Below the pieces are notes generated by a model. That model did no database searches, was not told where the DNA came from, and was given only the letters and a program-made list of their open reading frames with translations. From assembly GCA_026416715.1 (NCBI GenBank), contig JAOAEQ010000007.1, positions 1 to 64,000 on the forward strand: 64,000 nucleotides of DNA, in the 5' to 3' direction. The position numbers and the translations under genes were made by a program. Within the stretch, counting starts at the first letter, position 1. Every line of letters begins with the position of its first letter. Of this stretch, positions 38,169-47,576 are shown piece by piece. Source of the DNA: a bacterium. GTDB lineage: Bacteria; UBP4; UBA4092; JAOAEQ01.

Positions 38169-38714
38169 ATGCAGATTGTTATTACAGGCCGACATATTGA
38201 GATAACTGCACCAATTAAAGAATATGTTGAAAAGAAGATTAAACGATTAGAGAAATATTTTAATCATATTTTAGAAGTTCGAGTAACCTTAATTGGAGAA
38301 AAACATCGACAGATAGCCGAAGTTAATATCGATGCAAATGGATTGAACATCGCGAGTAGTGATGAAACATCAGATATTTATGCTTCAATAGATAATGTTG
38401 TTGATAAACTTGAGCGGAAACTCCAGAAATATAAAGAGCGATTGACACGGCATCGTAAGAGAACTTATGATAAGAAAGAGGTTGGCTTTGTTTATAGTTA
38501 TATCACGCCCGAAGAATTAGAACCAGAAAAAACCGAACCGCAAATAATTAAATCAAGCCGGCTGGCGTCAAAACCAATGTCTATTGATGAAGCAGCTATG
38601 CAATTAGATTTAACCAACCAAATATTTTTGGTTTTTGTCAATGATAAAACGAACGAACTCAATGTTATTTATCGTCGGAAAGACGGTAATTTTGGATTAA
38701 TTGAACGAGAATAA
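38169..38714 (+). CDS. hpf: Ribosome hibernation promoting factor, long form
   Basis: 181 residues. The N-terminal S30AE domain (about 1-98: ITGRHIEITAPIKEYVEKKI...) binds the decoding region of idle ribosomes; the C-terminal domain (about 120-181: SSRLASKPMSIDEAAMQLD... FVNDKTNELNVIYRRKDGNFGLIE) mediates ribosome dimerisation, marking the long form. AAGGAG lies about 10 bp before the ATG. It is co-directional with lptB and hprK. Confidence 0.95.
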   Translation: MQIVITGRHIEITAPIKEYVEKKIKRLEKYFNHILEVRVTLIGEKHRQIAEVNIDANGLNIASSDETSDIYASIDNVVDKLERKLQKYKERLTRHRKRTYDKKEVGFVYSYITPEELEPEKTEPQIIKSSRLASKPMSIDEAAMQLDLTNQIFLVFVNDKTNELNVIYRRKDGNFGLIERE

Positions 38715-38851
38715 TTTTTCAGTAAATTCGAATCTCGGAACGAAAATCAACGATGGGATAAACAGAAAATTAGAGTATTATTTTATGTTCTGATTTGAGT
38801 TTTAGTTGGTAGTTTCGTATTTCGATATTCGAATTTCTGATTTTGTGAATT

Positions 38852-39793
38852 ATGCCTGAGATAACCGTTCGGGATTTGTTAGATGAAGAAGGAAAAGAAT
38901 TACAATTAGAACTGGTTGCTGGAGAAGCCGGATTAAATAAAAAAATCACATCTTCAGATTTACACCGACCACAATTAGGTTTATCCGGTTTTCTCGAATA
39001 TTTCGCCTATGAACGCATTCAAGTTATTGGACTAACTGAGCTTACCTATATCAATACCATACCCGAACAAGACCGATGGGATAGATTTGAACATTTATTT
39101 AATGAGAAAACACCATGTTTTGTTGTAACTACCGGATTGGCGCCACCATCAGAATTGATCGAATTAGGAAATCGGAAACAAACTTGTATTTTTCGAACCC
39201 AGTTGCAAACAACTCGGTTTATTAGTTTACTTTCAAACTATTTGGAAGTAAAATTTGCTCCGCATACAACCGTGCATGGGGTACTAGTAGATATTTATGG
39301 GGTTGGCGTATTAATACTAGGCCCATCTGGGATCGGAAAAAGTGAAACGGCATTGGAGTTAATCCATCGCGGACATAGATTAGTTGCAGATGATGTTGTA
39401 CATATTGACCGTATTGCTGGAAATGTGCTGATGGGTTATGGTTCCGATATTATTAAGTATCATATGGAAATTCGCGGATTAGGGATAATTAATATCCGAA
39501 ATCTTTTCGGAGTGAGTGCAGTTCGAACGCGAAAACGTGTTTCTTTAGTTATCCAGTTGGAAGAGTGGTCTGACCACAAAGAATACGATCGAACAGGGTT
39601 ATCTGAGAAAACTATTGAAATCCTGAATGTTGAGTTACCATTATTGACGATTCCGGTTCGGCCGAGTCGAAATATCTCAATTCTGATTGAGGTTGGAGCG
39701 ATGGATCAACGATTAAAACGTATGGGATATAATGCTGCCAAAGACCTTGATCGAATGCTGATAGATAATATTACGAAGCATAAAGACGAATAG
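38852..39793 (+). CDS. hprK: HPr kinase/phosphorylase
   Basis: 313 residues. The C-terminal catalytic part has the P-loop GPSGIGKS (157-164), HRLVADDVVHI, the HprK signature EIRGLGIINIRNLFG, and RPSRNISILIEVGAMDQRLK. It phosphorylates Ser46 of HPr in response to glycolytic state and reverses this with phosphate. Neither HPr nor PTS genes are in the window. The 137-bp gap before it contains an AT-rich TTCGAA-type phrase (38808-38835). A hairpin terminator follows. Confidence 0.95.
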   Translation: MPEITVRDLLDEEGKELQLELVAGEAGLNKKITSSDLHRPQLGLSGFLEYFAYERIQVIGLTELTYINTIPEQDRWDRFEHLFNEKTPCFVVTTGLAPPSELIELGNRKQTCIFRTQLQTTRFISLLSNYLEVKFAPHTTVHGVLVDIYGVGVLILGPSGIGKSETALELIHRGHRLVADDVVHIDRIAGNVLMGYGSDIIKYHMEIRGLGIINIRNLFGVSAVRTRKRVSLVIQLEEWSDHKEYDRTGLSEKTIEILNVELPLLTIPVRPSRNISILIEVGAMDQRLKRMGYNAAKDLDRMLIDNITKHKDE

Positions 39794-39839
39794 CCTATTT
39801 GTTTGGAATTTGATTTGTAGTTTGGAATGACAATATAAT

Positions 39840-39866
39840 AGCGGGTCTGATTATGCCCGCTGTTTT
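39840..39866 (+). terminator. Rho-independent terminator of hprK
   Basis: Stem AGCGGG (39840-39845) / CCCGCT (39856-39861) with a 10-nt loop, then GTTTTTAT. It lies 47 bp after the hprK stop and 30 bp before the next start codon. Confidence 0.75.
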
Positions 39867-39896: not shown

Positions 39897-41444
39897 ATGA
39901 AAAGATATAAACCAATAGTTCTAATTATCTGTAGTGGGTGGGGAATGGGTAGGAATAAGCCTAATAATGCGATTGCGAGCGCTGCTATTCCCAATTTCAA
40001 TGCGTTTTTGAAGAGTTATCCCGCAACACAAATAACTAATCCTGCTGAACCTGTTCTGAGAACACCAGAATGGGCATATGTCAATGTAGGTGCTGGTAGA
40101 TTTATCGCTTCTGAATTGGTTAGAATCAATAATGCTATTCATGAGAGAAGTTTTTATACTAATCCGATATTAATTTCAGCGTTTAAGCGTGTTAAACAGG
40201 AAAACACCCGACTCCATTGTATTGGGTTAATATCAGATGCCGGAATTCATAGTCATCTAGACCATCTTTATGCGATATTAACGTTAGCGAAAGAAATAGG
40301 AGTGAAAAGTGTATATATCCATGCTATTCTTGATGGTAGAGATACTGTGGGTAAAACCGGAAAAGAGTATTTATCTGAGGTTGAGATGAAATTGAAAGAA
40401 TTACGGATAGGACAAATCGTAAGTCTAATAGGTCGGTATTATGCGATGGATAGGAACCAGCAGTGGGAACGTACACAGTTAGCGTATCAACTTTTTGTTG
40501 AACGGAAAGGATTAGCGTTTCCAAGTGCATCGAGAGCTATCAGTTATGCATATAAGCAGCAAGAGAATGATGAATTTATGTTACCAAAGGTGATAAACGA
40601 GCGATTTCAAAACCGACCTAGAAACTCGAATGATTCGAATTCTGGATCTGGAATACGAGATGGGGATACGGTGATAATGTTCAATTTTCGAGGAGATCGA
40701 CTGATTCAACTATTAACCAGTTTAACTGCAGATGAGTTTCCGTATTTTGCGCGGGGAAAAGTTCCGCAAGCAGAGTATATAACCTTAGCCCATTATGATA
40801 CTATAGATTTGGTTCCAGCGGTTTTCCCGAAACAAGAGATATGTAACTCGCTCGGTGAAGTTATTAGTAACCATGGATTAAGCCAGCTCCGACTCGGTGA
40901 GACCGAACGGTTTGCGCATCTAACCTATTTTTTTAATGGATTGCGACCGACTAAATTCGCTGGTGAAGATCGGATTCTGATACATTCGCCGAAAACCGAA
41001 ACGTATGCTTTAAAACCGGAAATGAGCGCGCGTAAAATTACGGAATCGGCATTAGTTCAGATACAGTCGGGGAAGTATGATTTTATTGTAATCAATTATG
41101 CGAATCTGGCGTTGGTTGCGAATACCGGTGATTTATCTGCAACTAAAAGAGCAGTTGAAACGGTTGATGAACAAATTGGTATAGTTGTTAATTCTGTTTT
41201 ATCGCAATATGGAGTTGTTATCATAACCAGTGAACTAGGAGGTGCTGAAGAAATTTCCGCTATTCGCCAACCACCGAATCATGCATTAAATTCTCCGTTG
41301 CCTTTTATCATTATCGGATTACAAGAACCAATTCAACTCCGTAATGATGGAACCATAGCGGATATTGCACCGACAATATTAGAACTCCTACAACTTCCAC
41401 AACCTGAGGAAATGACTGGAAAATCTCTGATGATTACCGCATAG
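39897..41444 (+). CDS. GpmI-family protein lacking catalytic residues (probable pseudoenzyme)
   Basis: 515 residues, full length for 2,3-bisphosphoglycerate-independent phosphoglycerate mutase and alignable throughout. The substrate-binding residues are kept: SDAGIHSHLDH, LDGRD, GRYYAMDRN and FNFRGDR. The catalytic side is not. Against the Bacillus enzyme: Asp12 is Ser13 (IICSGWG); the GNSEVGH loop with nucleophile Ser62 is replaced by a shorter TPEWAYVNVG; Asp403 and His407 are Ala405 and Asn409 (NYANLALVAN); Asp444-His445 are Glu446-Leu447; Lys336 is Arg. Only His462 of seven metal ligands remains. The frame is open and codon use normal, so it is probably expressed. A regulatory or phosphoglycerate-binding role is inference; a true GpmI is expected elsewhere. 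Confidence 0.85.
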   Translation: MKRYKPIVLIICSGWGMGRNKPNNAIASAAIPNFNAFLKSYPATQITNPAEPVLRTPEWAYVNVGAGRFIASELVRINNAIHERSFYTNPILISAFKRVKQENTRLHCIGLISDAGIHSHLDHLYAILTLAKEIGVKSVYIHAILDGRDTVGKTGKEYLSEVEMKLKELRIGQIVSLIGRYYAMDRNQQWERTQLAYQLFVERKGLAFPSASRAISYAYKQQENDEFMLPKVINERFQNRPRNSNDSNSGSGIRDGDTVIMFNFRGDRLIQLLTSLTADEFPYFARGKVPQAEYITLAHYDTIDLVPAVFPKQEICNSLGEVISNHGLSQLRLGETERFAHLTYFFNGLRPTKFAGEDRILIHSPKTETYALKPEMSARKITESALVQIQSGKYDFIVINYANLALVANTGDLSATKRAVETVDEQIGIVVNSVLSQYGVVIITSELGGAEEISAIRQPPNHALNSPLPFIIIGLQEPIQLRNDGTIADIAPTILELLQLPQPEEMTGKSLMITA

Positions 41445-41549: not shown

Positions 41550-43241
41550 CTAACATTTAGGTTTGATTGTACTGAACAGGATAATTGCAACTAGGAAGAA
41601 AGTTATGAGGGAAAATATACTTACGCAATGGCTAATTTTTCGTATTGAAGTTTGAGTGAAAACTTGATTGATTTGATGGTTTCCAGATGAAATTGCGATA
41701 AGCATTAATCCATAACTATCAGTTTCAAAAGCATATTTAGTCCCATCAAGTTCAACCTGCCATCCCGGAAAATAAAATGTATTTAATCGAACCACGCTCG
41801 GTGATTCCGCGATAATAAACCAGGAACGATTTGTTCCGGTAATCGTTTGCGGTTGAATAACCATTTTCCCAGCAATAGTTGAAATCGGACTATCCGCAAA
41901 ACTATTCGGCATCCGATTGACAGTTTGCGGAAGATATTCATTGCTCATTGTCGTCCCGTAACTTTTTTGAACTGATTCGCAAGTCCAGATAAATTCCGGA
42001 GTTAACTCTGTTTCACGAACCGGGATACTACGGTGGTGTAAATAAATTGACGAAAGTAATATCGTTATAATTAGTGCTATCATAGCACTCAATTTTGGCG
42101 ATATATATTTCGTCCGGATTATATCGATAGTAGCACCACTTAATAATGTTAATGGTAAAGCGGTTAAGGCTAATAATCGCCAAGGATATAAAATATATTT
42201 CATCAAGGGAATGACCGCCCAAATGAATTTGCTTATCGGTAACATTAAAAAGATTAATCCGAGTAGTGATATCCAAGAGAACCAATACCATTGTTTCTTG
42301 ACAAGCGATAAATCCAACTTAGCGTTATTCAATATAAAAAATAATGAGATACATGAAAGTAGTATCGGGGCTAGTCCGAGTTGGAGCGACATTCGATTAA
42401 TTGCACCGGGTTCGCTGCCTCCCCATCCCCAACGGGGATTGACTAGGTCAACTAACGAAACAAAGTGGTTGCGATAATCCGCAGCGGTAACCAGATTTTC
42501 AACTGAAACGAATTGTTTTTCTGCTAATGCTGGAAGCCAGAAATAGGCGCTAAAACCTAAACCAAATAATAACCCTAGTAAGCAGTAAGTAGTAGGTGTT
42601 AGGAATTTTTTTCCCTTTGTAAAAATGAGAAAAATAATATAAACGAGCAGAAATGCAGTAAAGACCATAGCCATAATGTTATGGCTTAGGATGACTGCTG
42701 CATAAGATAAACTTGCACTAAGCAGATACCACGGAGTGAACTTTGTGTTCCCTTGCCATAATTTATAAAAGAAGAATAAGACCCAAGGGAAAAATGCAGT
42801 CGCAATGAATTCAGAAATATCTCCACGGACATAAACCTGTACCAGATGATAAGGGAAATAAACATAAACGATAGCAGCAACTAATCCAGCAAGGTTATTG
42901 TGGAGAATTTCTTTCACCCAGAAATAAACGCCAATACCGCCAAGCAGAAATCCGAGTATAACAGTTGCATGGATCGAATACACATAGCCCAATCCCGCGA
43001 GATAGAGTAAATAAGCTATGTAATATGCAAGTGGAGCATAAAAATTAAAAAACGGATAACCATATCCAAGTGCAAATGAAGAAACCCAGCGCGGTGGAAT
43101 TTGTCCTTCGTTAAAACATTGTTCTATTCCATAGAGCCGAAATAACGGAAAATACATATCATGAGTCAAGATAAATCCAGGAAGTAGTAATGGGATAATA
43201 ACGACGAAGCTAAATCCGATAATGATAAGAACCCACCGCAT
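41550..43241 (-). CDS. Polytopic membrane protein, PTPS-related/GT-C-like
   Basis: 563 residues with about 12 membrane helices and a C-terminal extracytoplasmic domain. The N-terminus has an HDMYFP segment after the first helix and GYPFFNFYAPLAYY, as in the 6-pyruvoyl-tetrahydropterin synthase-related membrane family (Pfam PTPS_related, from memory), which resembles GT-C lipid-linked sugar transferases. The aspartate in the first loop fits the GT-C catalytic position. The C-terminal part (PGWQVELDGTKYAFETDSYG) resembles YfhO-type domains. Probably a glycan-modifying enzyme; substrate unknown. It is downstream of the LivJ-type gene and separated from it by a long hairpin. Confidence 0.65.
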   Translation of the reverse strand: MRWVLIIIGFSFVVIIPLLLPGFILTHDMYFPLFRLYGIEQCFNEGQIPPRWVSSFALGYGYPFFNFYAPLAYYIAYLLYLAGLGYVYSIHATVILGFLLGGIGVYFWVKEILHNNLAGLVAAIVYVYFPYHLVQVYVRGDISEFIATAFFPWVLFFFYKLWQGNTKFTPWYLLSASLSYAAVILSHNIMAMVFTAFLLVYIIFLIFTKGKKFLTPTTYCLLGLLFGLGFSAYFWLPALAEKQFVSVENLVTAADYRNHFVSLVDLVNPRWGWGGSEPGAINRMSLQLGLAPILLSCISLFFILNNAKLDLSLVKKQWYWFSWISLLGLIFLMLPISKFIWAVIPLMKYILYPWRLLALTALPLTLLSGATIDIIRTKYISPKLSAMIALIITILLSSIYLHHRSIPVRETELTPEFIWTCESVQKSYGTTMSNEYLPQTVNRMPNSFADSPISTIAGKMVIQPQTITGTNRSWFIIAESPSVVRLNTFYFPGWQVELDGTKYAFETDSYGLMLIAISSGNHQINQVFTQTSIRKISHCVSIFSLITFFLVAIILFSTIKPKC

Positions 43242-46391: not shown

Positions 46392-47576
46392 TTAGAAGTA
46401 ATCTAGAATATGGGTTGGTTTATCGAAGAATGCGGTGTTTAAGAACGACAATTTAGCAGGTCTCTTGATTTCCAATTTTCCATCAATCGCTAACTCTTCC
46501 GCTGACCGATAGCCGGAATAAAGCTCTGAAAATGTTTGTATGGTGCAACAGAACTCCGGCGTTTTTGTCGTTCTATGAATTGCTGCTTTACCCGCTTCAA
46601 TATCAAGTTCCCACGGACCGATATTCCAATCTCCGCAATCGTCTTGAATTGAAAAAATGACCTTGCCTTGTGCTTGTGGGGGATATCCACGGAGTTCAAC
46701 CGCTTTCTGAACATCAACTACCCGGAATTGAAAAACTGGTTCCATAGCGATTTTTGCGGAAAACGGTTCGCGAAAATGTTTCCAGAGTATTGGATAGTAT
46801 GGAGTAAATAATTGAAATCGGGAAATATTATTTGGCAACTGCTGCATGAATCCGAATAACGCTTTATACGCCGTTAAATTCAAACAAGCGAATTCTTTAA
46901 TGATACATTCGTGGCCGAATTCTACTCGATTATGGGTGCACAGGAGATATCCAATCGGTTCGCCGTTATCTTCAATAATATATCCTTGCCCTTTTTCTTT
47001 CATAATCTGCTCGATTTTTTTTATCCATAACTCTTTCGTTCGTTGAACGCAAAGATTATATTTCATCGCGTATTGCGAATAGATTTTATCTAAAAGCGGT
47101 ATTTCTTTTTCCGGTTCGCAATATCGAACTAACTTCTTCTCATCAAACGGTCGAATTCCATCTTGTTTAAATTCACGATATACATACCGATGCCCGCAGA
47201 GTTCCCAACCAAATTTACGATAGTATGCATGCGAAAATGGATAAAGAATCGAAGTCCATTGTTTATGTTCTCGCATATCACGCACACTATCCCGCATAAG
47301 CGCTCCCGCATATCCTTTTCCCTGACAATCTGCTCGAGTTGCAACTCCTCCAATACCGCCCATCGAAATAACGTTTCCGCCAACCCAGATTTTATACGGG
47401 ATTATCTGGATTATACTAACAATATGTTTTCCTTCAAATATCGCACGGGTATTCGATAATACCGAATTCTGCGCCCATTGTTGACCGATTTCTAAACCGG
47501 TTTTGTAGCTATTATTGTATATTTCTGCTATTAACTGTCGTTCCGATTCTTTAACCTGGCGAATGGTTGGGGTCAT
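46392..47576 (-). CDS. GNAT acetyltransferase, Eis-like
   Basis: 394 residues. The N-terminal GNAT domain has the acetyl-CoA loop ATRADCQGKGYAGALMRDS. A second degenerate GNAT domain and a C-terminal sterol-carrier-like fold (about 285-385) ending ILDYF, whose terminal carboxylate usually completes the active site, match the Eis architecture. Eis proteins N-acetylate aminoglycosides or lysines; the natural substrate here is unknown. FSHAYYRKFGWELCG is a typical family segment. Confidence 0.9.
   Translation of the reverse strand: MTPTIRQVKESERQLIAEIYNNSYKTGLEIGQQWAQNSVLSNTRAIFEGKHIVSIIQIIPYKIWVGGNVISMGGIGGVATRADCQGKGYAGALMRDSVRDMREHKQWTSILYPFSHAYYRKFGWELCGHRYVYREFKQDGIRPFDEKKLVRYCEPEKEIPLLDKIYSQYAMKYNLCVQRTKELWIKKIEQIMKEKGQGYIIEDNGEPIGYLLCTHNRVEFGHECIIKEFACLNLTAYKALFGFMQQLPNNISRFQLFTPYYPILWKHFREPFSAKIAMEPVFQFRVVDVQKAVELRGYPPQAQGKVIFSIQDDCGDWNIGPWELDIEAGKAAIHRTTKTPEFCCTIQTFSELYSGYRSAEELAIDGKLEIKRPAKLSFLNTAFFDKPTHILDYF

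Follow-up and report, generated by a model that had tools for sequence, protein, structure and literature searches.

The gene at positions 39,897-41,444 of the window (the whole 64,000-nucleotide stretch of bacterial DNA analysed here) raises the question of what purpose a cofactor-independent phosphoglycerate mutase (GpmI, or iPGM) might serve when its catalytic residues are missing. The 515-codon frame (+ strand) contained no internal stop codons. Its product scored 488 bits against TIGR01307 (cut-off 330.65), with residues 5-512 matching all 504 model positions, and 422.5 against the stricter NF003897, which is below the cut-off of 862. In Pfam, iPGM_N was assigned to residues 77-301 and Metalloenzyme to the flanking parts. 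PDB entries 1ejj and 1o99 were aligned by phmmer across residues 5-513, and the best solved relatives were all iPGMs. The protein is thus a full-length member of the family above the curated TIGR01307 cut-off, and the preliminary description of this DNA, in which the frame was taken for a GpmI homologue throughout, was borne out.

Residues were numbered according to the sequence of 1ejj (Geobacillus stearothermophilus, “Bacillus” numbering) in an alignment of 111 rows. The metal ligands seen in the Caenorhabditis elegans crystal structure are D426, H430, and H485 at site 1 and D37, S86, D467, and H468 at site 2 (PMC5382265). These correspond to Bacillus D403, H407, and H462 (site 1) and D12, S62, D444, and H445 (site 2). 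All seven positions are replaced in the window protein. The nucleophile Ser62 of working enzymes is Pro57, and its loop is six residues shorter; site 1 reads A405, N409, and A463 (from D403, H407, and H462), and site 2 reads S13, P57, E446, and L447 (from D12, S62, D444, and H445). In sequence order, the site is therefore S, P, A, N, E, L, A, compared to the canonical D, S, D, H, D, H, H. Further landmarks of the site were also lost (G60R, V64W, G65A, H66Y, G406A, N447G, and T460N). The shortened nucleophile loop had been noted in the preliminary description, as had the absence of six of the ligands; the seventh, H462, had been regarded as retained. That part did not hold. The alignment has no gap between this segment and the conserved N-P-V-P motif, and in it the window's own His462 falls opposite Bacillus Ala461, with window Ala463 opposite Bacillus His462. 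Phmmer likewise left the two histidines unpaired. Because they are one column out of register, the count of replaced ligands is seven of seven. The protein is a homologue whose catalytic residues are lost, i.e. a pseudoenzyme by sequence.

The substrate side was found to be intact, as had been claimed. Bacillus H123, R153, D154, R185, R191, R261, and R264 are all identical in the window protein, and K336 is replaced by arginine (R338). For a wider view, invariant positions were defined as those at least 99% identical among canonical GpmI rows (n = 76; 25 in the transferase domain and 51 in the phosphatase domain). All 25 transferase-domain invariants were kept, compared to 29 of the 51 in the phosphatase domain (22 lost; Fisher p = 2.7e-5). 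Apart from V340L and L484I, the lost positions (20 of 22) fall within the metal-site motifs and the S62 loop or next to them. When canonical sequences were left out one at a time as a control, the most deviant of them had lost eight phosphatase-domain and four transferase-domain positions. As judged from the aligned residues, the loss in the window protein is targeted, not general. The features are collected in Table 1.

Table 1. Positions of the features discussed; entries beginning with G000 are given as genome, contig, and positions in the genome of the window, and all others are window positions.
Feature	Position	Strand	Remarks
hprK (HPr kinase/phosphorylase), upstream neighbour	38852..39793	+	
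Promoter-like site TTGATT-18-TATAAT	39810..39839	+	10 of 12; overlaps hairpin
Intrinsic terminator-like hairpin between hprK and the gpmI-derived gene	39837..39864	+	10 pairs, T tail
gpmI-derived pseudoenzyme gene	39897..41444	+	515 aa, ATG start, TAG stop
Ser13 replacing metal ligand Asp12	39933..39935	+	
LRTPEWAY (residues 54-61) replacing MGNSEVGH (nucleophile Ser62 to Pro57)	40056..40079	+	Directly after six-residue GLPxGQ-loop deletion
Transferase (substrate-binding) domain, iPGM_N	40125..40826	+	Residues about 77-310; 25/25 invariant positions retained
Arg338 at the Lys336 position	40908..40910	+	Conservative change
ALVAN (residues 405-409) replacing metal motif DMVGH (D403A, H407N)	41109..41123	+	
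ELGG (residues 446-449) replacing metal motif DHGN (D444E, H445L, N447G)	41232..41243	+	
NHAL (residues 461-464) replacing metal motif TAHT (T460N, H462A)	41277..41288	+	His462 one column off
HPr gene (L245)	G000:C8:11284-11526		GLHLRPAG and SIMGVMML sites (His, Ser) intact; adjoins PTS enzyme I and an EIID-like membrane protein
ApgM-type proteins	G000:C18:23405-24535 and G000:C12:20159-21244		

The rarity of this state was examined in 228 homologous loci drawn from named genomes and a broad genome sample (a few hundred of 97,973 genomes searched; not exhaustive). The complete DSDHDHH set was present in 224 of them, and the 1ejj reference constituted a separate, 225th such row. In the other four, true ligand loss was considered and rejected: two (L017 and L227) lie at contig edges, and two (L242 and L243) are split between frames. 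Among these sampled loci, the window protein was the only full-length frame with a missing site. Among the matches listed in a genome-contig scan, the best were 44-45% identical, and all sampled relatives were canonical. No second pseudo-GpmI appeared among those matches or in overlapping samples of 98, 386, and 192 genomes, and no close relative was found in the viral contigs searched. In the tree, the window protein joined locus L117 (genome G003), a grouping that was flagged as the meeting of two long branches. At G043:C1:1757-3379 and G041:C90:48326-49885, gpmI matches were broken across two frames, one of them containing in-frame stops; these are probably frameshifts or assembly errors.

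Neutral decay was simulated by replacing 18 invariant residues. The runs accumulated a mean of 7.8 stops, and only 0.2% of them had none (P = 0.002); the real frame has zero, compared to about eight expected under neutral decay of equal degree. With the motifs removed, the phosphatase domain had a mean patristic rank of 75 of 120, and the transferase domain had one of 21 of 120; apart from its metal motifs, the protein is not unusually divergent. The codon adaptation index was 0.701 (window mean 0.698, sd 0.026), and the GC3 of 0.30 matched that of the window's other genes. Taken together, the pattern of loss, the open frame, and the divergence lend indirect support to maintenance of the gene by selection.

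The genome (2.96 Mb in 64 contigs, estimated completeness 100%) was searched for other mutases. Four full-length Metalloenzyme proteins were found: the window protein, two of ApgM type, and DeoB. One ApgM scored 612.8 bits with the mutase model NF003160, above its curated cut-off of 468, and the other ApgM-type protein matched NF003242 and a proposed homoserine kinase model. The ApgM on contig C18 has a glutamate in place of a metal-ligand histidine (the H407 equivalent, in the motif GEDG); this is probably a subfamily trait, because one protein of a class relative shares the motif. Family searches of the genome revealed no second GpmI, and its sole histidine-phosphatase protein (203 aa) reached no dPGM cut-off. 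Thus, neither a second canonical GpmI nor a GpmA, the two candidates named in the preliminary description, was found, but another mutase family was. ApgM, an archaeal-type mutase, is likely the working mutase of this genome. Enolase is also present; lower glycolysis is thus provided with a mutase even without GpmI, whose catalysis would be dispensable. The one other genome of the phylum that was compared, from the same class, encodes Metalloenzyme proteins including an ApgM-like one; it has neither gpmI nor hprK. The earlier designation of the window protein as a likely pseudoenzyme is strongly supported by the loss of every ligand, the intact frame, the full set of transferase invariants, and the presence of a different mutase family.

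A model of the window protein was calculated with AlphaFold2 using 42 sequences (pLDDT 87.6, pTM 0.86); the fold is partly imposed on it, because the input alignment consisted of canonical relatives. The segments of low confidence were 52-54 and 457-462 (the former nucleophile loop and one metal loop), as well as 237-239 and 241-248. When the model was compared with the PDB in Foldseek, the best matches were all iPGMs (TM 0.83-0.87), including 1o99 and 4nwj, the latter being Staphylococcus aureus iPGM with 3-phosphoglycerate. Retention of the canonical two-domain iPGM fold is supported by this prediction.

Upstream of the gene lie an lptB-like ABC ATPase and then hpf and hprK, the last two occupying 38169-39793. 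The terminator that had been placed between hprK and the gpmI homologue was recovered as a hairpin stem. Along with the promoter-like site, it suggests a separate transcript for the gpmI-derived gene, although such matches are common by chance; that this site might serve the gene alone is a weak proposition, resting on a start point that would fall inside the hairpin. In the flanks of the other gpmI loci searched (as much as 6 kb at loci from named genomes and less elsewhere), no hprK was found. Because of these intervening elements and the lack of hprK at the other gpmI loci, the link to hprK is one of proximity, and with both genes missing from the class relative, the relevance that had been attached to this neighbour is weak. 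HprK itself does have a plausible target: the genome encodes PTS enzyme I and an HPr in which both the His and the Ser site are intact; the class relative also has HPr despite lacking hprK. Elsewhere in the window, a 563-aa membrane protein matching PTPS_related (PF10131) is encoded at 41550-43241 (- strand), and a 394-aa GNAT acetyltransferase with an SCP2-like C-terminal domain is encoded at 46392-47576 (- strand).

Any mutase or phosphatase chemistry in the window protein is almost certainly gone. That it is still an active phosphoglycerate mutase, disguised by a sequence or alignment error, is scarcely credible: it passes the TIGR01307 equivalog cut-off, but 18 replaced invariants and a six-residue deletion are spread over separate motifs in a frame intact throughout, which excludes a base-call error, and two alignment methods agree. 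It is very improbable that a remodelled cleft supports a new enzymatic chemistry that needs no metal, using e.g. Arg338, His341, Glu446, or His462. In favor of this, the former site is lined by several polar residues and the substrate side is preserved; however, a candidate nucleophile is absent, and the low confidence of loops 52-54 and 457-462 in the model does not speak for a newly formed site. We know of no precedent for such chemistry in the iPGM family. Only slightly less improbable is a decaying pseudogene, redundant with ApgM, in which the metal site was lost first and the frame has stayed open by chance. The redundant mutase would fit this, as would the status of the gene as a single-copy orphan missing from the class relative. 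Against it stand the simulated stops (no stop or frameshift was found), the confinement of the losses to one domain, the normal codon usage, and the ordinary divergence outside the motifs.

Because the nucleophile and all metal ligands are lost while the substrate-half invariants are all kept, the protein is probably a phosphoglycerate-binding regulator or scaffold rather than an enzyme. With moderate confidence, we favor a GpmI-derived pseudoenzyme that is selectively maintained because its transferase domain still binds 3- or 2-phosphoglycerate, or a similar small acid, in a conformational or interaction role. A purely structural or protein-protein role (scaffold, decoy, or partner inhibitor) that needs no small-molecule binding is unlikely. 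The whole fold is predicted to be retained, and canonical iPGMs are targets of regulatory proteins such as cyanobacterial PirC, predicted to bind in the interdomain cleft (PMC12077085), yet the charged substrate residues are conserved completely, beyond the needs of a surface role.

Under the favored reading of a ligand-binding pseudoenzyme, no phosphoserine intermediate would form and neither of the two metal ions would be bound, the canonical two-domain fold would be kept, and glycolytic flux would pass through the separate ApgM enzyme. Canonical enzymes hold phosphoglycerate at the transferase domain (PMC8113725), and their two-domain clamp closes upon substrate binding (PMC12077085). From the full conservation of the phosphoglycerate-holding residues, the ligand would be expected to be held by H118, R148, D149, R180, R186, R265, and R268; it may then close or open the clamp, a movement that might be read by a partner protein. 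The preserved substrate side is compatible with a possible role as a phosphoglycerate sensor or regulator. The metal site of canonical enzymes is also touched by the phosphate, and the affinity of the window protein for phosphoglycerate may therefore be low. A more specific proposal is tentative and rather doubtful: a metal-free receptor whose transferase domain would sense 3PG/2PG and whose clamp would control a partner protein, perhaps one belonging to the HprK/HPr carbon-control pathway.

A GpmI with its catalytic half-site erased and its substrate half-site kept would amount to a natural test of the transferase domain alone, and the protein is a candidate intracellular phosphoglycerate sensor. 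Equivalog annotation by TIGR01307 would label it a working mutase, and lower glycolysis would consequently be mis-assigned in this lineage. The host phylum is sparsely sampled, and no description of a naturally inactive GpmI, a pseudoenzyme of a central metabolic family, was found in the literature searched (open-access papers only).

With canonical GpmI (TIGR01307; PDB 1ejj, 1o98, and 4nwj), the window protein shares its full length, both domains, at most 45% identity, the transferase invariants, and the predicted fold; the other sampled members keep the metal and nucleophile residues and the S62 loop, whereas here all seven residues and that loop are lost. ApgM (TIGR00306/NF003160), encoded in the same genome, belongs to the same alkaline phosphatase superfamily and carries out the reaction of canonical GpmI, but it is a distinct family of about 400 aa with its catalytic motifs present. 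The cyanobacterial iPGM targeted by PirC is a point at which carbon flow is regulated, a parallel to the regulatory role proposed here; unlike the window protein, it is active and has an extra loop and C-terminal segments (PMC12077085). A precedent for a dead protein holding its ligand is PDB 1o99, the nucleophile-dead S62A form of Bacillus stearothermophilus iPGM crystallised with 2-phosphoglycerate, although it carries one designed change and has its metal ligands present.
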